Both the position numbers and the translations under genes were made by a program. A DNA stretch of 64,000 bases. It comes from Pseudomonas sp. 31-12. GTDB lineage: Bacteria > Pseudomonadota > Gammaproteobacteria > Pseudomonadales > Pseudomonadaceae. Location: the NCBI RefSeq assembly GCF_003151075.1, contig NZ_CP029482.1, positions 5,642,001-5,706,000 on the forward strand, in the 5' to 3' direction. Within the stretch, counting starts at the first letter, position 1, and the number at the start of each line of letters is the position of its first letter. The notes beneath the pieces are model-generated. The model saw only the letters and a program-made list of their open reading frames with translations, did not search any database and was not told where the DNA came from. Shown here piece by piece: positions 1,743-62,345 of this stretch.

Positions 1743-2372
1743 GTGGGCTGGCTGATTCTGGCGCTGATGGGCGCGGTGACTTTTCTGTACGGCCTGAGCG
1801 TGCACGCCGCGCTGCTGTGCCTGCTGGTCAAGCCGTTGCCGGTGTTGGCCTTGCTCGGTTGGTTGCATGACGCACCACCCAGCGAATACCGGCGCTGGAT
1901 CAGCCTTGGATTGATTTTCTCCCTGCTCGGCGATGTGTTGCTGGCGTGGCCGGGGGATTTGTTTGTGTTTGGTCTCGGGGCTTTTTTGGTCGCCCACCTG
2001 GCGTATCTGAAGGCCTACTTGAGTGATTGCCGACGGTTGGCGTTGTTGCCGCTGATCATCGCTTTGGGCGTCGGCGCGATATTGCTGGGGATCTTGATTT
2101 CCAATGGGCTGGGTCCGCTGCTCATCCCGGTGATCGTCTACGGTCTGGCCATCAGCGCGATGCTCTGGCGGGCGCTGGCTCGACTCGGCACTGACGTGCC
2201 CAAACGCTCGGCGCTGTTGGCAGCGGCTGGCGCCGTGGCGTTTGTGTTTTCGGACAGCGTGATTGGCATCAACCGGTTTGTCTTGCCGTTTAACGCCGCG
2301 CCTTACGTGATCATCCTCAGTTACTGGCTGGGGCAATGGGGAATTACAGCGTCGGCGTTCTCCCAAAAATAA
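1743..2372 (+). CDS. YhhN family membrane protein (lysoplasmalogenase-like)
   Basis: Inner-membrane protein of 209 residues that starts with GTG two bases after the inhibitor gene. It is almost entirely hydrophobic, with about seven to eight predicted membrane segments. The motifs KPLPVLALLGWL, SLLGDVLLAWPGDLFVFGLGAF and FSDSVIGINRF match the YhhN/TMEM86 family. Animal members hydrolyse the vinyl-ether bond of lysoplasmalogens. Bacterial members are annotated by similarity, and the substrate here is not known. The conserved acidic residues in LLGD and FSDS are present. Family assignment is firm; the enzyme activity is inference. Confidence 0.85.
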   Translation: MGWLILALMGAVTFLYGLSVHAALLCLLVKPLPVLALLGWLHDAPPSEYRRWISLGLIFSLLGDVLLAWPGDLFVFGLGAFLVAHLAYLKAYLSDCRRLALLPLIIALGVGAILLGILISNGLGPLLIPVIVYGLAISAMLWRALARLGTDVPKRSALLAAAGAVAFVFSDSVIGINRFVLPFNAAPYVIILSYWLGQWGITASAFSQK

Positions 2373-2381
2373 CGCTGCCCC

Positions 2382-2504
2382 TGTGGCGAGGGGGCTTGCC
2401 CCCGTTCGGCGGCGCAGCCGTCGCAAAACCGGCAATTACGATCTTACTGATACACCGCAATGGGACGGCTTCGCCGTCCAACGGGGGCAAGCCCCCTCGC
2501 CACA
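2382..2504. repeat. Long REP-type inverted repeat (GTGGCGAGGGGG family)
   Basis: Perfect 25-base arms at 2382-2406 and 2480-2504 carry the TGTGGCGAGGGGGCTTGCCC core. A second, smaller inverted repeat (GACGGCTTCGCCGTC) lies at 2465-2479 inside the right half. It sits between the YhhN gene and cmoA and fills most of this gap. Confidence 0.8.
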
Positions 2505-2620
2505 ACAGCCCTTTCACCATTCAAATTGCATGAGCCCAGCGGTTTATCAGACAACCCGCGCATCCCCCCGTCAATTTGGCTAAAATGCCGGCCTTTTCCA
2601 CCTATGCCGCTGGAACCGCC

Positions 2621-3364
2621 GTGAGCAAAGACCCCGATCGCCTTTTCGCCCAGCCTTTGGCCCAGGTGCCTGACTTCGCCTTCAACGAGGACGTGGTGCG
2701 GGTGTTCCCGGACATGATCAAGCGCTCGGTGCCGGGTTATCCGACCATCGTTGAGAACCTCGGCGTGCTCGCCGCGCAATTCGCCCAGCCCAACAGCGTG
2801 CTCTACGACTTGGGCTCGTCCTTGGGCGCCGTGACTCAAGCATTGCGTCGTCACGTGCGCACCGATGGTTGCCGAGTGATCGCTGTGGATAACTCGGCGG
2901 CGATGGTCGAGCGCTGCCGCGAATACCTCAACGGTCAGGACTCGATGTTCCAGGAATTGCTGCCCGTGGAAGTGATCGAGGGCGACATCCTCGCCCTCGA
3001 CTTTCAGCCCGCCTCGGTGGTGGCGCTGAACTTCACCCTGCAATTCATCGCCCCGGACCAGCGCACCGCGTTGCTCTCGCGTATCCGCCAATCGCTACTG
3101 CCCGGCGGCGCGCTGATTCTGTCGGAGAAGCTGCGCTTCAACGACCTTGAAGAACACGCGCTGCTCACTGATTTGCATGTCGCGTTCAAACGCGCCAACG
3201 GCTACAGCGAGCTGGAAATCGCCCAGAAGCGCAGCGCCATCGAAAACGTCATGAAGCCCGACAGCCTCGAAGAACACCGTGAGCGCCTGTTGGCCGCCGG
3301 GTTCTCGAAAGTCGTGCCGTGGTTCCAGTGTCTTAACTTTGCCTCGTTGATTGCCTTGCCATGA
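2621..3364 (+). CDS. cmoA: Carboxy-S-adenosyl-L-methionine synthase
   Basis: CmoA converts S-adenosylmethionine and prephenate to carboxy-SAM, the donor used by CmoB to modify uridine 34 of tRNAs that read NNU/NNA/NNG codons. The GTG at 2621 is chosen as start. It gives 247 residues, the usual length, and begins [10 protein letters not shown] as in other CmoA proteins. The SAM-binding motif [13 protein letters not shown] and the following acidic position ([14 protein letters not shown]) are present. The stop codon overlaps the start of cmoB by four bases (ATGA), so the two are translationally coupled, as expected for consecutive steps. Confidence 0.95.
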
Positions 3365-4317
3365 TTGATCTATCCCCCCTCGCCCGCCGATTGGCCGGCA
3401 CACCGCTGGCCGACTGGGCCAACACCCTGCAAGCGCAACTCGACAAGAAAATGGAAAAGGGTCACGGCGACCTGGAGCGCTGGCAAAGTGCGCTGGATGC
3501 ATTACCGAAGATTCAGCCGACTGAAGTCGACCTGCTCAACGGTCTGACGCTGGACACTGATTGCGATGACGAGACCCGTGCACAAATGCGCACGGCGTTG
3601 ATGGGTTTGTCGCCATGGCGCAAAGGCCCGTTCGACCTGTTCGGCGTGCACGTCGACACCGAATGGCGCTCGGACTGGAAGTGGTCGCGGGTCGCTCCGC
3701 ACCTGGATTTGAAGGGCAAACGCATCCTCGATGTCGGGTGCGGCAATGGCTACTACATGTGGCGCATGCTCGGTGCCGGGGCCGACAGCGTGATCGGTGT
3801 CGACCCGAACTGGCTGTTCTTCTGCCAGTTCCAGGCGGTGCAGCGTTACTTGTCAGAACCCAATGCCTGGCACCTGCCGTTCCCTTTCGAAGACCTGCCG
3901 CCAAACATGGAAGGCTTCGACACGGTGTTTTCCATGGGCGTGTTCTATCACCGTCGTTCGCCGATCGAGCATTTGCTGGCGCTGAAGGATTGCCTGGTCA
4001 AGGGTGGTGAACTGGTGCTGGAGACGCTGGTGATCGAAGGCGATCAGCAGCAGGTGCTGGTGCCGGAAGACCGTTATGCGCAGATGCGTAACGTGTGGTT
4101 CCTGCCGTCGGTGCCGGCGCTGGAATTGTGGCTGCGGCGTGCCGGGTTCACGGATGTTCGCTGTGTTGACGTGAGCGTGACCACGGTCGAGGAACAGCGC
4201 GGGACGGAGTGGATGAAGTATCAGTCGTTGAGTGATTTTCTGGATCCGCAGGATCACAGCAAGACGGTGGAAGGGCTGCCGGCGCCGATGCGGGCCGTCA
4301 TTGTTGCTCGTAAGTAG
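3361..4317 (+). CDS. cmoB: tRNA U34 carboxymethyltransferase
   Basis: CmoB transfers the carboxymethyl group from carboxy-SAM to 5-hydroxyuridine at position 34, giving cmo5U in tRNA. The protein is 318 residues, near the usual size. The Rossmann-fold motif [15 protein letters not shown] lies at about residues 123-137, followed by [14 protein letters not shown] and [14 protein letters not shown], all characteristic of CmoB. It overlaps cmoA by four bases. A strong REP pair follows directly, so this is probably the last gene of the two-gene operon. Confidence 0.96.
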
Positions 4318-55173: not shown

Positions 55174-55258
55174 GCCCTGATGGCGGAATTGGTAGACGCG
55201 GCGGATTCAAAATCCGTTTTCGAAAGGAGTGGGAGTTCGAGTCTCCCTCGGGGCACCA
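55174..55258 (+). tRNA. tRNA-Leu(CAA)
   Basis: An 85-base cloverleaf including the encoded CCA. The acceptor stem GCCCTGA pairs with TCGGGGC (one G-U pair). The anticodon loop TTCAAAA gives anticodon CAA, which reads UUG. The long variable arm typical of tRNA-Leu and the GTTCGAG TΨC loop are present. A terminator follows. tRNA 3' ends of this class are often integration sites, and a foreign segment starts about 900 bases downstream. Confidence 0.95.
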
Positions 55259-55737: not shown

Positions 55738-56170
55738 ATAAATCGGCCCCACGCAATCGTGGATGCATAACAAGGTGCCCTTCCAATCCCGCCCTTGTTC
55801 GTTCTTACGCTCCGCGTGGCAATGCATCTCGCGCCGCTTTTCGCCGCGGATTGCCGCAACTCTAAAACGAGTAATACTTACCACATATCGCCCACAAAAC
55901 TCGGAGTGCTATTAATGCGTTTGCACTTGTTTCGACGGATTACCACGCCAAATTGCGAAATGGCATCGACATCTAAGGATTTCCCGCAGAGTATTCACCC
56001 TCCTACTGTTTATCCTATACGGTTGTAATGGCAGACGATCCATCTCTGGAGAAAACGGGACAGCCCCCCCTTATGATTCATTAAAAAGTGGCCTGCCCCC
56101 TATTTCCAATACACCCCAAGATACCCCGCAGCGGAAGAAAATTGCTAATTACGCAACCATCTCCCATAAA
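55738..56170. other. Gene-free boundary of the foreign segment
   Basis: This 433-base stretch holds no convincing gene. It falls from host-like to AT-richer composition and contains a degenerate piece of a Pseudomonas repeat (TTCTTACGCTCCGCGTGGCA) at about 55802-55821. It also contains the sequence AAAACGGGACAG at about 56052, of which a similar copy (AAAACAGTGGGACAG) lies at about 61085 beyond the island. These could be traces of the insertion boundary, but the match is weak. Confidence 0.4.
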
Positions 56171-57136
56171 TCAAGAAAGCTTTTGATATGGTGAGTTTTC
56201 AAGTTTTAAAATACGACTAAGCACCAATTCAGTTGTTGGCTTTACGGGACAACCAGTACTACCCAAGCTTGAATATAAGCACGTAACTTCCGGGTAATTC
56301 ATAGCTGCAACAATAGACGCTAACGCGTGCGGCTTTGGACCAAATGGAACAATAACTACAACAGCCGAATTTATATACGGGTAAAAAATCTCACGAATAG
56401 TATCGTAACACTGCTGCACACTTGTTAGTGGAGAAAAAACAGTTCCATTCGAGAAGTTATCTAAAAAAAACTTATTTATACTCAGAGTTTTGTCAGTGTA
56501 GTCATCTAACGCACCTGGTCGTGCGACAAGTGAAAAGGTTCTATCGGGTTCGATTTTATGATGCAGGCAGATTGGTCCACCCTCACTGAAACCCAAACTA
56601 AAAATCCCAATAGTTTCTCTATTATACGCAGATACCGCCTCACAGCCCGGCAAGACTATTGGCTCACTTAACTGACTTATAACATTGGATGATGAATGCT
56701 CACCAACCGAATATACAAAATCGCAAGCCACAGGCACACCGAAATCGAAACATTTTATAAAATTCAATATTTCGGAATACCACAATCGCGGCATTGAAGA
56801 GTAGTCAACAACAATTCTAACCGTTTTACCTTCACTTATTTCAATTTCAGAAAACGCACCAAGCAAACATTTAAATATTTGGTTAAGGTCGTTATATTCA
56901 AGAAAAATAGGGGAAAGAGAAAAATTCTGACGATAGAATTCTTTATTCAACAAAAAAACTTCATTAGTAGAACTTGACGAAAAACCTAACAACAAAACCT
57001 TGCCAAACTTTGAAGAGCGCATCCCTGGAAAAAAAACTGATCGCTCCTCATAGCCGCAAGCAAATATCGCCAAGTCGTATGAAGCTCCTTCAACCTCATT
57101 AAACGATATATCTGTTACATCCAAATAAGTACTCAT
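56171..57136 (-). CDS. Unrecognised protein with CGYEERS and GPKPHAL motifs (island gene 4)
   Basis: Protein of 321 residues of unknown family. The N-terminal half looks Rossmann-like, with alternating strands and helices: DLAIFACGYEERSVFFPGMR at about 21-40, GKVLLLGF and TVRIVVDYSSMPRLWYSEIL at about 105-124. The C-terminal part has SAVVVIVPFGPKPHALASIV at about 257-276. The motifs CGYEERS, DYSSMPR and GPKPHAL look like a ligand or catalytic site, resembling in spirit the nucleotide-sensing domains of conflict systems, but this is only a suggestion. Its ATG overlaps the ATPase stop by four bases (ATGA). AT-rich, no close relatives in the window; last gene of the operon. Confidence 0.75.
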   Translation of the reverse strand: MSTYLDVTDISFNEVEGASYDLAIFACGYEERSVFFPGMRSSKFGKVLLLGFSSSSTNEVFLLNKEFYRQNFSLSPIFLEYNDLNQIFKCLLGAFSEIEISEGKTVRIVVDYSSMPRLWYSEILNFIKCFDFGVPVACDFVYSVGEHSSSNVISQLSEPIVLPGCEAVSAYNRETIGIFSLGFSEGGPICLHHKIEPDRTFSLVARPGALDDYTDKTLSINKFFLDNFSNGTVFSPLTSVQQCYDTIREIFYPYINSAVVVIVPFGPKPHALASIVAAMNYPEVTCLYSSLGSTGCPVKPTTELVLSRILKLENSPYQKLS

Positions 57137-58914
57137 AGCAAATCCATCTGCTGAAATGTTAAACCTCGATCCAATCCCCGATCGACACCAAAAGCCAAGA
57201 TGGTGCTTAGTGCCACATCCTTCCCTCGGCGGGGTAGCAAATCAAAATGCGGGGACAATATATAAGACAGTCTAAATACACCGTTCATGACAGGCAACGT
57301 CTCGTAATCCGACCTCTCCACCATTGGCCTTACTAGCCCAAGACCTATGGCATCCGCAACGACTCCCCACAGAGCCTCATCATTCAGATTAAACCTAAAG
57401 GAAAGAGTCATATCAGTACCTAGCTTCTGATAATGAAGCAGATGTTTAAAGTACTTACCCACCAAGGAAATAATATCGTATATCTTCTCACCCTGATTAG
57501 GTTCAAATACCATCCGCCTGTACTCGTCAAAAGAATAAAGTCTTAATATCTTGTCTTGAGTAGCATTTGATATCGGTTTAAAACCCGAGGTTTCACTACT
57601 GGCATTGTAAAAGGCATTAAGCAGACTTATGAGGCGCCTAGGATTACCATCACTGCACCTTATAACCATTTCATAGCCAGAATAAGCCGTAATCCTGGAG
57701 TTCCCCTTATGAGTAGCACCGAAGTCCCTTAAAAGAAGTGCCCCCTTTAATTTCCTTCCTATCTCGTCGTCAAATTTTTTGGTCCCAAGCAAATCGTGAG
57801 CTCTTCGCTTGGTCCTATCATTCGCATATTTATCAATCAGTTTTATCATACCATCCTGGTCGACTTTCTCCTCATTTGACAGAAGATAAGAGCTGCTCAA
57901 AAGCGACTCTAAAGAAATACCGCTTCCACCCCAAACACTATCTTTTATTCGCTTTTCAAATATATCTTCACAAAACTTTTTAAGTGATTCAAATTCACTA
58001 TTTTTCCCACCACGAGCAGCAACATCTATGTTATCCAAATAAATATACGTAAAATCATCCTTTCGATTCAACGGCACACTTGTATTGGTATCCAAAGAAT
58101 AATGTTTATATGGCATGGTTGTGATCTTGAAAACCAAGCCATCTGCAAAGGTTCTAAGGTGCGAATTCAAGATTATATGATGCAGTTTACTTAAGTACTC
58201 CGCCTCGTCTAAGCAAACGGCCCAAGCTACATCAGCAGGAAAATCGATAAATCTCTTTGTAACATCTATAGCTCGCTTTAGCGGCTCAAACAACCCCAAC
58301 TCAAAAGCAGCACCGACACTTTCAGGCGTTACATTGCTATCGACTCTAGCACGCTGTTCATTCAATAGCTTTTCGTATTCAATATCCGCAAGCGTCTCTC
58401 TTAACTCTCTTATACTGTAAATATTATCCTTACCAAACCAAGACTTACCCACTCTTTCAGCGATGTTACGCTCTGTAAGCGCTCTCTGCCCGGCATTCTC
58501 AGAATAACAATCAATGCAGCTGCGGAGAGTAGCCAAGTATGATGAGCAGCATGAAATATTCAATCTCCATTGAAAATGCCTCTCATGCTCGGCCTCGCTA
58601 AGCCAAACTTTATTCTTCAGGCCCCCTACCCATGAAAGCCTCATCGGAACATATATACCAACAAATTTCCGAGAGCGAATTATTTCTACCGCTTCCTTAT
58701 TATTCAACTTCGAAAGATATTCATGTGACAGCATCTTAATTATCGCAGTCTTACCTGAACCTCTAGCCCCTAACACGATATGATTCTTGGCTGATATAAG
58801 ACGACTAAATGCTTTCGTCCAAACAAACTGTTTTGGAAGATCTTCAACAGTACTATTTCTAGCATTATCATTTTCAAAAGGATTAGACGCTTTCAGAGAA
58901 CCGGAAAATTCCAT
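57133..58914 (-). CDS. ORC/CDC6-like AAA ATPase (island gene 3)
   Basis: P-loop ATPase of about 593 residues. The opening SNPFENDNAR ... LPKQFVWTKAFSRLISAKNHIVLG is typical of ORC-CDC6-type ATPases in defence islands. Walker A is GARGSGKT (about 49-56 from the ATG), and Walker B is AWAVCLDEAEYL near residue 235. A sensor-like stretch FKITTMPYKHYS and a region GNPRRLISLLNAFYNASSET (lid/sensor 2-like) follow. The ATG at 58914 is preferred to the GTG at 58923, because GAGG then stands at a good distance; it begins five bases after the phosphoesterase stop. Probably the motor or switch of the system; DNA or NTP sensing is inferred. Confidence 0.82.
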   Translation of the reverse strand: MEFSGSLKASNPFENDNARNSTVEDLPKQFVWTKAFSRLISAKNHIVLGARGSGKTAIIKMLSHEYLSKLNNKEAVEIIRSRKFVGIYVPMRLSWVGGLKNKVWLSEAEHERHFQWRLNISCCSSYLATLRSCIDCYSENAGQRALTERNIAERVGKSWFGKDNIYSIRELRETLADIEYEKLLNEQRARVDSNVTPESVGAAFELGLFEPLKRAIDVTKRFIDFPADVAWAVCLDEAEYLSKLHHIILNSHLRTFADGLVFKITTMPYKHYSLDTNTSVPLNRKDDFTYIYLDNIDVAARGGKNSEFESLKKFCEDIFEKRIKDSVWGGSGISLESLLSSSYLLSNEEKVDQDGMIKLIDKYANDRTKRRAHDLLGTKKFDDEIGRKLKGALLLRDFGATHKGNSRITAYSGYEMVIRCSDGNPRRLISLLNAFYNASSETSGFKPISNATQDKILRLYSFDEYRRMVFEPNQGEKIYDIISLVGKYFKHLLHYQKLGTDMTLSFRFNLNDEALWGVVADAIGLGLVRPMVERSDYETLPVMNGVFRLSYILSPHFDLLPRRGKDVALSTILAFGVDRGLDRGLTFQQMDLL

Positions 58915-58919
58915 TTTCT

Positions 58920-60167
58920 TCACCTCTTGAGGATAACAAGCTGATCAAGATTTATATTATCAATTTCATGAAGGGTTGCATTTAGCTCCCCCTGAATTGC
59001 TTTTAGTGATGCGCGGAGTGACTCATTCGTGTAGTACTTGAGTTCCGGGTTTACGGAAACAAAACTTTTCCATTCAACAAACTTTTTTTCTTCAAGGATT
59101 GAACCAAGTCGTAACTGAAGCTCTGCTTGCAACTGAGGCAGAGGTAAAAAAGCACCAAAATAATGTTGCGAATCGACAGACCCCTTGGCTTGGCTTTGCA
59201 TCCATCCAGGCCCAGAGTAGTGAGTCCAAGACTTGACGACACCTCGAGCATATTGCGTCTTAGAGCAACGATCATGAAATTCAATCAAGTGGAAATTATT
59301 ACCTACAGCTTCAAAATACCTATTATCCAAACTAGCACTAAAGCTACCCGCGCACAAAATCCATAATGGATGACCAACTGTTTGAATCTGCATAGTAAAT
59401 CGAGGAATGTGCTTATGACCATGTACGACAAAATCAAAACCATACTTCGACAAAATATCTAACAGACCTTCAGCATTTGTCATCGCGCTAAAATCTGCAA
59501 GTGGAAAAGTACTATCTAAATACTGTTTAGGGTGGTGGTGAAAGATAAAAATCTTTAACTTTTTCGTGGCAGATTTGTCACTCAAAATCTTATCAATCTG
59601 CATTAACTGCGCGGGCTTCACCTCTCCATGATGAGGTTTTTTGTCCGACTCATCGAATACAGCAGTATTCAACGAGCATACTAGGACATCCTCAAACTCC
59701 CACGACACCAGGTAAGGGGATTCGTCAAACCTACCATCTGCACTAGTCAGATTATCACTAAAAACAAGGCCGCCAGAGTGAAAATTCAGATACTTAGATC
59801 TAATTACATCACTTTCACTATGATGCAACGCTCTCAAAGCTGTAATCGTCTTCCAATCAACATCGTGATTTCCAGGACAGAAGAGTATTTTTTTCTCTTC
59901 CACACCCAGTGACACAGCAATCTGCTTTATCAACGAGGAGGCAAGCACAAACTCTTCTTTATCAGCACTATTGCTTATATCTCCGGGAACCACTAAATAA
60001 TCTGCTTTAATATTCTCCTTAACCACGAACTCTTTAAACTGGTCAAGGTAATTGTCGATTACAGCTCCGGAGACATTATCAACAGAGAAGTCCTTGCTCT
60101 TGGCACCCCCACCAATATGCAAGTCACTTATTATTGCGACATTAATCTTTATCCCAGAACTTTCCAT
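58920..60167 (-). CDS. Calcineurin-like metallophosphoesterase (island gene 2)
   Basis: Predicted metal-dependent nuclease or phosphoesterase of about 415 residues. All five metal-binding motifs are present in order: SDLH (about 14-17 from the ATG), GDISN (about 61), GNHD (about 101), FHHHP and VHGHKH (about 250). The C-terminal part beyond about 300 is charged and helical and may contact partners. The ATG at 60167 is chosen; a TTG five codons upstream, directly after the methyltransferase stop, is the alternative. Its substrate is unknown: cyclic nucleotide, nucleic acid and protein are all possible for this superfamily. The tight packing with a methyltransferase and an ATPase favours nucleic acid. 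Confidence 0.85.
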   Translation of the reverse strand: MESSGIKINVAIISDLHIGGGAKSKDFSVDNVSGAVIDNYLDQFKEFVVKENIKADYLVVPGDISNSADKEEFVLASSLIKQIAVSLGVEEKKILFCPGNHDVDWKTITALRALHHSESDVIRSKYLNFHSGGLVFSDNLTSADGRFDESPYLVSWEFEDVLVCSLNTAVFDESDKKPHHGEVKPAQLMQIDKILSDKSATKKLKIFIFHHHPKQYLDSTFPLADFSAMTNAEGLLDILSKYGFDFVVHGHKHIPRFTMQIQTVGHPLWILCAGSFSASLDNRYFEAVGNNFHLIEFHDRCSKTQYARGVVKSWTHYSGPGWMQSQAKGSVDSQHYFGAFLPLPQLQAELQLRLGSILEEKKFVEWKSFVSVNPELKYYTNESLRASLKAIQGELNATLHEIDNINLDQLVILKR

Positions 60168-60182
60168 GTATAGTCTCGACAA

Positions 60183-60980
60183 TCAATGGGAAAAATTACT
60201 GACTATTAACTCTTCAACAATTCTTCTATGCGCGCTGAATCCGGCTACGTGCCGCTTAACACTAATATTTTCCACATTCCATTTTTGCTTCAAGGCAGAT
60301 CTAATTATTTCGCAATCGCTGTAAGAAAGAATGAAATAAGCTTTTTTTCTATCTATTTCTTCTAAAGTTGTAATCAGTCGATCTATATCGTCAAAATGAA
60401 AAGAATTCGGTCCATATTCCCCCCTCATTCGCCCCTCAGGCTTTGAGTAAGGAGGATCTAAATAGACAAGATCGCCTCGATTAACCCCTGGCAATATCCC
60501 ACCGAAATCTCCATTCAAAAGAACAGCATTCTTTAAAGCTAAGGAATATTTTTCGATAACATCTCTTGTTGGCATCTTGCCTGTCTTTGTGCCCATCGGA
60601 ACATTAAATAGACCCGCTTTATTAGTACGATAAACACCGTTAAAACAAAGGCGATTCAGGTAAATAAATCTGGCCGCGCGGGCTTCTAAAGACAAATTAT
60701 CGATGCGAAGACTTCGAACTTCGTAGTACCGTTCTTTATTAACTTCAAATGCTTCCAGATGATCATATACCAAACCAGGCACTTCTTTAATCTGCCTATA
60801 TGCAAGCATCAGCTCTTCGTTCATATCAGAAAGAACTGCATTCTTAGGCAAGACATCAAAAAAAAGACAGGCGGAACCACAAAATGGCTCGTGATACCGA
60901 TTAAATTCTTTAGGAAACCGATCCTTAATGCTAGAAAGCAGTTTCTTTTTGCTGCCTGCCCATCGAAAAAGCGGATCCAA
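60183..60980 (-). CDS. D12-class DNA adenine methyltransferase (island gene 1)
   Basis: N6-adenine DNA methyltransferase of 265 residues, Dam/DpnM type. The SAM-binding motif RWAGSKKKLL lies at residues about 6-15, EPFCGSACLFFDV at about 32, and the catalytic DPPY motif in DLVYLDPPYSKPEGRM at about 175. Start is TTG at 60980: the in-frame upstream codons meet a stop (TAA), and AGGG lies seven bases before it. The target sequence is not known; GATC is possible. First gene of a four-gene operon; the next reading frame opens immediately after its stop. As a lone methyltransferase it would protect or mark DNA, so a defence setting is likely. Confidence 0.9.
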   Translation of the reverse strand: MDPLFRWAGSKKKLLSSIKDRFPKEFNRYHEPFCGSACLFFDVLPKNAVLSDMNEELMLAYRQIKEVPGLVYDHLEAFEVNKERYYEVRSLRIDNLSLEARAARFIYLNRLCFNGVYRTNKAGLFNVPMGTKTGKMPTRDVIEKYSLALKNAVLLNGDFGGILPGVNRGDLVYLDPPYSKPEGRMRGEYGPNSFHFDDIDRLITTLEEIDRKKAYFILSYSDCEIIRSALKQKWNVENISVKRHVAGFSAHRRIVEELIVSNFSH

Positions 60981-61416
60981 AGTTAAACCCTAATAAGACA
61001 TTTTTTCATTTCGACAGGCTCAATTAACCTCGTCGTACTCGTTGGGAGCGAATCTCTCTCGTCACCCATTGCGCGGAGCCGGGTAAAACAGTGGGACAGA
61101 GCTCCATTCAACGTAGCGTACCCGCAAACTCAGCAGATAGACAGATTCGTTGAAAGAGTTGTGAAAACGGAGGACAGGCTACCTTTTCATCATAGAAATA
61201 AATGAGATCTGGGACGATTTCGGATCTCAGCCAACGGGATGTAGGGCTATTCCGAGATATGCGTAGGGATACTTTCTGCGTCGCATAATGCTGGCGATTT
61301 CCAACCCTAGTGGTTGATCTAGGGGCTCTCAAAGGTTGCAGGAACGGGGTCTGCACGATACCCTCCCACCGTCGCTGCCAATTCAGCGACCGGGTGTGGA
61401 AACCCGTGTAATTCAA

Positions 61417-62029: not shown

Positions 62030-62144
62030 TGGCTGGGAATGGCGGGATGGTTCTGATGTCGGTCGGCGAGGTGTGAAGTCTGGGGGAGCGGACTGCTTGG
62101 GATGATGGTAGGGCATTCAGGATTGATGTTGGATGGTCTGGCGC

Positions 62145-62172
62145 TTTCGCGAGCAAGCTTTGCTCCTACAGG
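62145..62172. repeat. Single diverged REP unit
   Basis: One unpaired REP-like unit (TTTCGCGAGCAAGCTTTGCT and following) that ends a few bases before the PH-domain gene remnant. Confidence 0.6.
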
Positions 62173-62198
62173 GTTTGCGGTGAATTGACTGGCATTGT

Positions 62199-62345
62199 TA
62201 GCCCCGAGTTCTTTCGGGGCTTTCGACCTGCTGGTGATGCCCTGCCCGTTGACCGCGATGATGCGTTTGTTGGCAAACACCAAGCCGTCGCGCATGGATT
62301 TGCAGGAGGCGGTGATTTGCTCCCCTTCCAGTAGCAACCAAGTAT
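62199..62345 (-). pseudogene. Remnant of a PH-domain (bPH) protein gene
   Basis: Minus-strand fragment translating to LLLEGEQITASCKSMRDGLV and FANKRIIAVNGQGITSRSK. That is the start-to-middle of the bacterial PH-domain family (consensus like GEQVxxAFKxxRDxxVFTNKRIIAVDxQGITGKK). It has lost the N-terminal part and runs after about 40 codons into an AGCCCCGA hairpin and a REP unit, so it is truncated at both ends. The longer open frame here is not a real gene. Confidence 0.6.

Follow-up and report, generated by a model that had tools for sequence, protein, structure and literature searches.

What would a DNA methyltransferase, a phosphoesterase, an ORC-like ATPase and a fourth protein do together when they are encoded back to back in an AT-rich operon of Pseudomonas sp. 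31-12? The operon lies in a 64,000-nucleotide stretch of contig NZ_CP029482.1 (positions 5,642,001 to 5,706,000; hereafter ‘the window’), and an initial annotation, made from the sequence alone, read it as a phage-defence module in which methylation marks self. That reading is partly upheld. Sequence supports it, as the gene order is constant in loci of three phyla, the hotspot occupied by the module holds defence genes in relatives, and methyltransferases of four families lie beside one core; the annotation overlooked a CARF sensor and a clamp-like tail. Here, we give about even chances to a fuller reading, namely that the operon, inserted in the chromosome and moving horizontally, protects against phages (or plasmids) as a member of the ORC-CDC6/CARF6 class, with a clamp-tethered, mark-checking and nucleotide-hydrolysing mechanism.

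The locus and its relatives

All four genes are on the minus strand and encode, in order, a D12 methyltransferase (MTase; 60183–60980), a calcineurin-like metallophosphoesterase (MPE; 58920–60182) that is the probable effector, an ORC/CDC6-like AAA+ ATPase (57133–58923), and the product of gene 4 (56171–57136). The spacings are 0, −4 and −4 bases, which bears out the initial description of four same-strand frames with near-zero spacing or overlap; the five bases then reported at 58914 apply if the ATPase begins at an internal ATG and otherwise become the −4 gap. The AT-richness noted at the same time is equally evident, with GC content at 0.39–0.42 in the 1-kb windows of 56001–61000 and at 0.52–0.63 everywhere else in the window. 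Promoter and terminator scans gave matches no more frequent than in shuffled sequences, and the list of open reading frames holds no small antitoxin-like gene within the operon.

The module lies within an insertion hotspot, a variable interval between conserved flanks (55740–61324, without strand) that adjoins a tRNA-Leu(CAA) gene (55174–55258, plus strand) and in which relatives hold Lamassu-like and Hachiman genes. It is a horizontally acquired, chromosomally inserted cassette, and module GC content is below that of the flanks in 11/11 modules. These 11 complete loci have the identical four genes in identical order, mostly with gaps of −4 to +4 bases. Among the matches listed for two ATPase-core patterns (eight loci), the MTase and MPE genes are present in order in 8/8, and gene 4 is present in all seven loci free of contig-end cuts. 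Distances co-vary strongly for MPE–ATPase (r 0.91), MPE–CARF6 (r 0.91) and ATPase–CARF6 (r 0.94), and less for pairs that include the MTase (r 0.51–0.63). Chance linkage of the four genes was rejected on these co-occurrences and on the co-variation of distances.

Counts over a wider set refer to 34 core loci, from which L040, which duplicates L039, L155, whose ATPase runs off the contig end, and further weak PF24389 or profile matches were excluded.

The ATPase and its C-terminal tail

The ATPase (596 aa) matches PF24389 across residues 14–572 (E 2.5e-94; 317.5 bits against a cut-off of 27), and Walker A residues G52, G55, G57 and K58, together with D239 and E240, are invariant in the ATPases of the 11 loci. 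Its predicted structure is poor (pLDDT 62), so that the fold search made with it gave a broad grouping only, with ORC, BrxC, RdrA and archaeal AAA ATPases; the matches listed for the ATPase profile against solved structures are P-loop stretches.

Past the PF24389 domain, the protein ends in a free terminus with QQMDLL (57136–57153, minus strand), of which QMDLL is a candidate motif for binding the DnaN sliding clamp. Tails of this kind were found in 18/25 ATPases of the first locus set, which partly shaped the tail rule, compared to 7/426 control tails. With the rule fixed beforehand, they were found in 5/9 later loci and in one of 83 control tails, a count of five being reached by none of 5000 shuffles. 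Only 21 of 622 internal 25-residue windows of the ATPases fit the rule, and five ORC-like proteins without a detected CARF6 partner (L044, L046, L048, L049 and L050) all lack such a tail; this set was kept apart as a contrast. Within it, L049 is under the PF24389 cut-off and the neighbour gene of L048 is cut by the contig. The strict rule fails in 11/34 ATPases, some of which have near variants (QLGFDF, QANLW and QLYVKDLF). By its sequence, the tail seems shaped for gripping the replication clamp, an assignment that stays putative for so short a motif.

The CARF6 sensor

Gene 4, which the initial annotation had left as an unknown protein, encodes a CARF6 protein (321 aa; PADLOC model PDLC01912, E 7e-65) with a tandem CARF fold in its structural model. 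The CARF-type motif residues R32, D111 and K268 are invariant (12/12). An assignment as a PulS/HFX_2341-like protein was rejected, the Pfam matches being sub-threshold. CARF proteins bind nucleotides, and their known ligands are cyclic oligoadenylates. None of the four genes has any likeness to a cyclic-oligonucleotide synthase in Pfam or PADLOC; a search of the host genome gave no match for Csm1 and one for SMODS, at 25.2 bits under a cut-off of 26.5.

The methyltransferase and the effector slot

By sequence, the MTase (265 aa) is a Dam/DpnM-like N6-adenine DNA methyltransferase (PF02086, E 4.3e-48; TIGR00571 dam of NCBIfam, 210.6 bits) and the only D12 match in its own host genome. The nearest solved structure is that of DpnM (2dpm, E 1.8e-44), whose target is GATC, which is no proof of the site of this MTase. 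Methyltransferases of four families (D12, C5, gamma-type N6 and N4/N6) adjoin the ATPase–CARF core in 26 of the 34 core loci; the other eight, including L086, which is cut by the contig, have no recognised methyltransferase. The pairing with effectors is tight (D12 with MPE in 11/11, C5 with HD in 5/5, gamma-type N6 with PRTase in 7/8), so the two types travel together and are not freely exchanged. MTase type also tracks the CARF6 subfamily.

The MPE (420 aa; PF00149, E 7.7e-16) has all five metal motifs, as do 14/14 of the MPEs checked, and with the Pfam matches of the MTase and ATPase this upholds the initial statement that the catalytic motifs are complete. Its C-terminus weakly resembles PF24408 (wHTH-Calcineurin_assc), with matches at E up to 0.5 in all but one of the 13 MPEs aligned and at E 0.11 in that of the window (12.8 bits against a cut-off of 27); no Calcineurin-CE model came up in the searches. 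The best PADLOC match is the ‘Effector, Endonuclease’ model PDLC00736 (E 9.3e-9). Sequence matches to solved structures are confined to Rv0805/Icc proteins and are weak (E 0.004–0.0075), as is the likeness to cyclic-nucleotide phosphodiesterases (PRK11148, E 2e-6). Pfam and NCBIfam searches found no restriction-endonuclease family in the MPE, ATPase or CARF6 protein; the MPE and ATPase do resemble the NCBIfam ‘anti-phage’ models DS9_1 (E 6.5e-29) and DS41_1 (E 4.9e-10), with scores under their cut-offs.

Depending on the locus, the effector slot is occupied by an MPE, an HD-CE or a PRTase-CE protein, and nucleotide chemistry is what the latter two share. The initial annotation had the phosphoesterase attack either foreign DNA or an RNA or nucleotide target; because PRTase-CE and HD-CE fill its slot elsewhere, we favour nucleotides over DNA, with the endonuclease name of PDLC00736 counting against this choice.

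Carriers

Numerous relatives sit on plasmids. For the sister version with PRTase, the ATPase is present at an identity of at least 95% in 142 plasmid records, and the whole 5-kb module is found in 4/5426 E. coli genomes, the strain names of which are those of C600 or J53 derivatives. As this version is already common, the class is directly testable. A tblastn search of plasmids with gene 4 gave no matches, even though plasmid relatives exist. Phages were rejected as the usual carrier, with no match for the ATPase and one partial match for the MPE; viral contigs gave three short matches only (47–54 residues), and single-protein scans of genome contigs and viral contigs gave no result.

Proposed mechanism and alternatives

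Judged from its sequence, the module probably shuts down infection by DNA without the right mark. The methyltransferase would mark host DNA; the ATPase would assemble on DNA, with its C-terminal tail as a tether to the replication clamp, and would there meet foreign DNA that is freshly copied and lacks the mark. The CARF protein would bind a nucleotide-type ligand and gate the complex, and the MPE, once released, would hydrolyse nucleotides (less likely DNA), halting phage replication or the cell. The net logic would be that of restriction-modification with a ‘restriction’ arm that destroys nucleotides. More tentatively, the locus may represent a widespread class of machines for replication-coupled nucleotide starvation, in which an ORC-type ATPase on the host (or phage) clamp inspects nascent DNA for the methyl mark set by the partner methyltransferase and, through a tandem-CARF switch, commands one of several nucleotide-destroying enzymes.

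The same genes could be arranged otherwise. The MTase might label host DNA without protecting it, such that phage degradation frees methylated nucleotides or oligonucleotides that the CARF protein senses before the effector fires. The nucleotide binding typical of CARF proteins, their invariant motif residues, the lack of ligand-synthase likeness in the operon, and the tracking of MTase type with CARF6 subfamily and effector all suit this scheme, but we hold it to be unlikely given that known CARF ligands are cyclic oligoadenylates and that MTase–CARF6 co-variation (r 0.63) is lower than that of ATPase–CARF6. Alternatively, the MPE could be a Mre11/SbcD-like DNA nuclease that the ATPase powers to attack unmethylated DNA in conventional ATP-dependent restriction, as the company of MTase, ATPase and phosphoesterase, the PDLC00736 match and the wHTH-like C-terminus would suggest. 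DNA cutting is not, however, expected of the PRTase-CE and HD-CE proteins that occupy the same slot, and with structural matches limited to Rv0805/Icc this reading appears improbable.

Those matches, and the likeness to PRK11148, would suit an MPE that clears the CARF ligand as an off-switch, leaving the ATPase/CARF complex as the effector. Ring nucleases do occur in CARF systems elsewhere, but PRTase-CE and HD-CE replacements would each need the same ligand as substrate, and we consider such a role very unlikely. Equally hard to credit is a cassette primarily for addiction or plasmid maintenance: many relatives are plasmid-borne, but the hotspot is shared with Lamassu-like and Hachiman genes, and the operon is without an antitoxin-like gene.

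If the preferred mechanism, clamp-tethered mark checking with nucleotide hydrolysis, is true, a single small operon would combine DNA marking, CARF nucleotide sensing and nucleotide depletion, and self would be told from non-self at the replication clamp.

Relation to known systems

Membership in BREX (PglX/BrxX, PglZ, BrxC) was rejected: PADLOC-DB includes BREX models, and the four proteins gave no Brx or Pgl match with E up to 1. The module has no PglZ, BrxX or BrxA/B/L matches and, unlike BREX, has a CARF sensor. With the CARF/SAVED effectors of type III CRISPR and CBASS (Can1, Card1 and Cap5), it has in common the tandem CARF fold and conserved motif residues, whereas its CARF chain is without an effector domain and its operon without a cyclic-oligonucleotide synthase.

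SspC of the SspABCDE phosphorothioate systems is an ORC/Cdc6-clade ATPase and a proposed DNA scanner (PMC10853773). Both systems combine a DNA mark with an ORC-type ATPase; the mark is phosphorothioate there and predicted adenine methylation here, and no module protein was identified as SspB or SspE. Clover consists of two genes, for a dNTPase and a nucleotidyltransferase (PMC12265719). A nucleotide-depleting effector under nucleotide control is common to both, in the module by proposal, and Clover as described is without a methyltransferase or ORC ATPase.

The initial statement that no named system has exactly this set was too strong, as the ATPase, CARF6, the wHTH associated with MPEs and the alternative effectors already have names in Pfam and PADLOC. 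Among the matches listed in a literature search of titles and abstract openings, no report of the four-gene set was found. Nicastro et al. reportedly described ORC-CDC6-like/PRTase-CE/HD-CE/calcineurin-associated conflict systems in 2023. With its ATPase over the Pfam cut-off and an adjoining CARF6 protein, two features of the ORC-CDC6-like/CARF6 class, the module is closest to these systems (PF24389, PF24390, PF24391 and PF24408): the ATPase family is common to them, and relatives share the effector slot and the CARF6 partner. The module here is the version with a D12 methyltransferase and an MPE, and the present analysis adds the clamp-like tail and a census of the methyltransferases.

The four genes and their conservation

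The initial annotation described four AT-rich genes on one strand at 56171-60980, and the open reading frames of the window bear this out, all four lying on the minus strand, with 39-42% GC in the module block versus 52-63% in the remaining 1-kb windows. The genes encode a D12 DNA methyltransferase (MTase; 60183-60980; Pfam PF02086), a calcineurin-like metallophosphoesterase (MPE; 58920-60182; PF00149), an ORC-CDC6-like ATPase (57133-58923; PF24389, 317.5 bits) and gene 4 (56171-57136). The last, without a significant family in the Pfam search, had been left as an unknown protein, a label now superseded by its strong PADLOC match to CARF6 (PDLC01912, E 7e-65). The MPE and the ATPase resemble, below cut-off, the NCBIfam ‘anti-phage’ models DS9_1 (E 6.5e-29) and DS41_1 (E 4.9e-10), respectively. 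The top PADLOC match of the MPE is ‘Effector, Endonuclease’ (E 9.3e-9), its sequence neighbours of solved structure are weak (Rv0805/Icc, E 0.004-0.0075), and the five metal motifs are kept in 14/14 MPEs checked. The ATPase fold, judged from a poor predicted model, appears broadly ORC/BrxC-like.

In plasmid searches, the identical order of the four genes recurred in Cupriavidus, Methylobacterium and Sinorhizobium. Two short patterns from the ATPase core, run against the species-genome collection, yielded at least eight confirmed loci (Paucibacter, a beta-proteobacterial MAG, Chryseobacterium, Cellvibrio, Nocardioides, an Acetobacteraceae MAG, Pseudomonas gingeri and Gemmobacter, the last cut by a contig end); among the matches listed, MTase, MPE and ATPase stand in order at 8/8 loci, and CARF6 comes next in the 7/7 that are intact at the contig end. 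Across 11 complete loci (the window, L005, L006, L081, L149-L154 and L156), identity to the window proteins is 33-54% for MTase, 20-48% for MPE, 20-58% for ATPase and 16-51% for CARF6. Distances correlate at 0.908 (MPE-ATPase), 0.907 (MPE-CARF6) and 0.940 (ATPase-CARF6), and at 0.51-0.63 between MTase and the other three proteins. In 11/11 loci the module has a lower GC content than its flanks. The four-gene module is rare, since gene 4 occurs in 2/298 genus genomes (the window’s own and one PRTase-type locus) and PF24389 exceeds its cut-off in 14/398 phylum genomes.

Effectors and methyltransferases of the core loci

We examined 34 distinct ATPase-CARF6 pairs (a first set of 25 and a later set of 9), with CARF6 confirmed by PADLOC in 29 and by our own profile alone in L043, L083, L084, L086 and L148. 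The MPE slot is otherwise filled by HD-CE (L038, L041, L130, L131 and L132 by Pfam; L086 by profile) or PRTase-CE (L037, L042, L045, L047, L083, L084, L085, L087 and L129 by Pfam; L043 and L148 by profile). The ATPase is fused to a protein kinase in L089 (6835-9324) and L147 (4104-6677), both by Pfam, and to a ParA-like domain in L088 (5079-7919), followed each time by CARF6; a kinase fusion is suspected in L090 from ATPase length.

A DNA methyltransferase adjoins the core, or lies within the same-strand gene run, at 26/34 loci (D12 in 11, C5 in 5, gamma-type N6 in 8, N4/N6 in 2). Assignments came from Pfam (the window, L037, L038, L041, L047, L083, L085, L087, L088, L089, L090, L130, L149, L151 and L153, of which L083 and L087 passed only the general MTS cut-off and L047 lay at the N6_Mtase cut-off), record annotation (L005, L006, L081, L084, L129, L131 and L132) or a profile built here (L150, L152, L154 and L156). 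At L041, three genes separate the C5 and HD-CE genes. No methyltransferase was found at L039, L082, L086 (at a contig start), L147, L042, L043, L045 or L148 (8/34). The occurrence of four methyltransferase families next to one core is an argument for a functional role of methylation; the pairings hardly vary (D12 with MPE 11/11, C5 with HD 5/5, gamma N6 with PRTase 7/8), which indicates that partner changes between methyltransferase and effector were rare.

Several loci deserve separate mention. On a Pseudoalteromonas plasmid (L082), a protein of 614 aa that matches no Pfam family at E 0.01 occupies the methyltransferase position (1886-3730), upstream of MPE-ATPase-CARF6. A Klebsiella plasmid (L085, 3858-8909) carries a PRTase sister module of N6 methylase, PRTase-CE, ATPase and CARF6; matches to its ATPase occur in 150 plasmid records, 130 of which are from Klebsiella, with identity reaching ≥95% in 142, and the whole sister module is present in 4/5426 E. 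coli genomes, with strain names C600 or J53. A distinct class (L042, L043, L045 and L148) combines a HAD/sugar-isomerase-like protein (HAD matched in L045), a PRTase-type protein, ATPase and CARF6, with 0/4 methyltransferases and 0/4 clamp-like tails; at several of its loci the neighbours are presumably PfkB-like or NADAR-like (PfkB, SIS and NADAR being assigned from motifs).

A clamp-like tail of the ATPase

The Pfam match of the window ATPase stops at residue 572/596, and past this domain the ATPase C-termini commonly read Q-x-x-L-F/L or Q-L-x-L-x-F/L, which is the consensus of bacterial sliding-clamp ligands. Within the last 25 residues, the motif occurs in 18/25 first-set ATPases (14 via the five-residue form alone), on which the rule was in part shaped; 7/426 control tails of other ORFs match, including the window’s own MPE, and 2000 shuffles gave a mean of 1.37 and a maximum of 6 matches. 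Applied frozen to the later ATPases, whose nine loci were obtained via core patterns (7) or PF24389 (2), independently of tails, the rule matched 5/9 versus 1/83 neighbour tails (the L156 methyltransferase; Fisher p 1.5e-5), and 0/5000 shuffles reached 5. The tail is present in 21/26 methyltransferase-bearing loci versus 0/4 of the HAD/sugar-isomerase class (Fisher p 0.0046), the latter probably one clade and so not independent, and in 0/5 ORC-like proteins without a detected CARF6 partner (L044, L046, L048, L049 and L050). We regard this clamp-like tail as a candidate DnaN-binding motif.

Genomic location

Left-flank homology to genus relatives stops near 55739, and right-flank homology begins near 61325. 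In seven further genomes with both flanks (L122-L128), the interval spans 750 to 5735 bases and holds different cargo, including Lamassu-like LmuB and LmuC matches (L126, another species of the genus) and an RmrA-like 378-aa gene (L124) with look-alikes in L123 and L125; L121, from another species of the genus and with the right flank alone on its contig, has Hachiman HamA and HamB matches. With conserved flanks and varied cargo that includes defence matches, the site is therefore a hotspot able to carry defence genes. P. gingeri has the same module (proteins 48-58% identical) at the corresponding site on the queA side, enclosed by duplicated pieces of flank sequence. Within the right flank, 62080-62200 resembles a dispersed repeat and has numerous matches in genomes of the genus.

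Proposed mechanism and relation to known systems

The three effector folds that occupy this slot are unrelated to one another yet have nucleotide chemistry in common, so we favour nucleotide destruction over DNA cleavage as the effector action. Taken as a whole, we infer a chain in which the methyltransferase would set a mark, the ATPase would scan at the clamp, the CARF protein would gate the response and the effector would then destroy nucleotides. Elsewhere in the host genome, a sub-threshold SMODS nucleotidyltransferase match (L157, 2267870-2268343) marks a possible source of a nucleotide signal.

Published accounts treat ORC/Cdc6 ATPases as a mainstay of conflict systems and, in Ssp systems, as predicted DNA-encircling scanners (PMC10853773), place BrxC in the ORC/Cdc6 clade (PMC12839542), present Clover as a nucleotide-depleting defence under nucleotide control (PMC12265719) and remark, already in 2014, on a kinase-AAA-CARF fusion family (PMC4012209). 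The clamp-like tail, the methyltransferase census, a tandem-CARF model of gene 4 and the Pseudomonas hotspot were not found in the parts of the literature searched, which is no proof of their being unpublished. Pfam already names the ATPase, HD-CE, PRTase-CE and a calcineurin-associated wHTH, and PADLOC already has CARF6; the wider class is, reportedly, very likely that described by Nicastro et al. in 2023. For these reasons, the module is a fresh version within a known, computationally proposed class.
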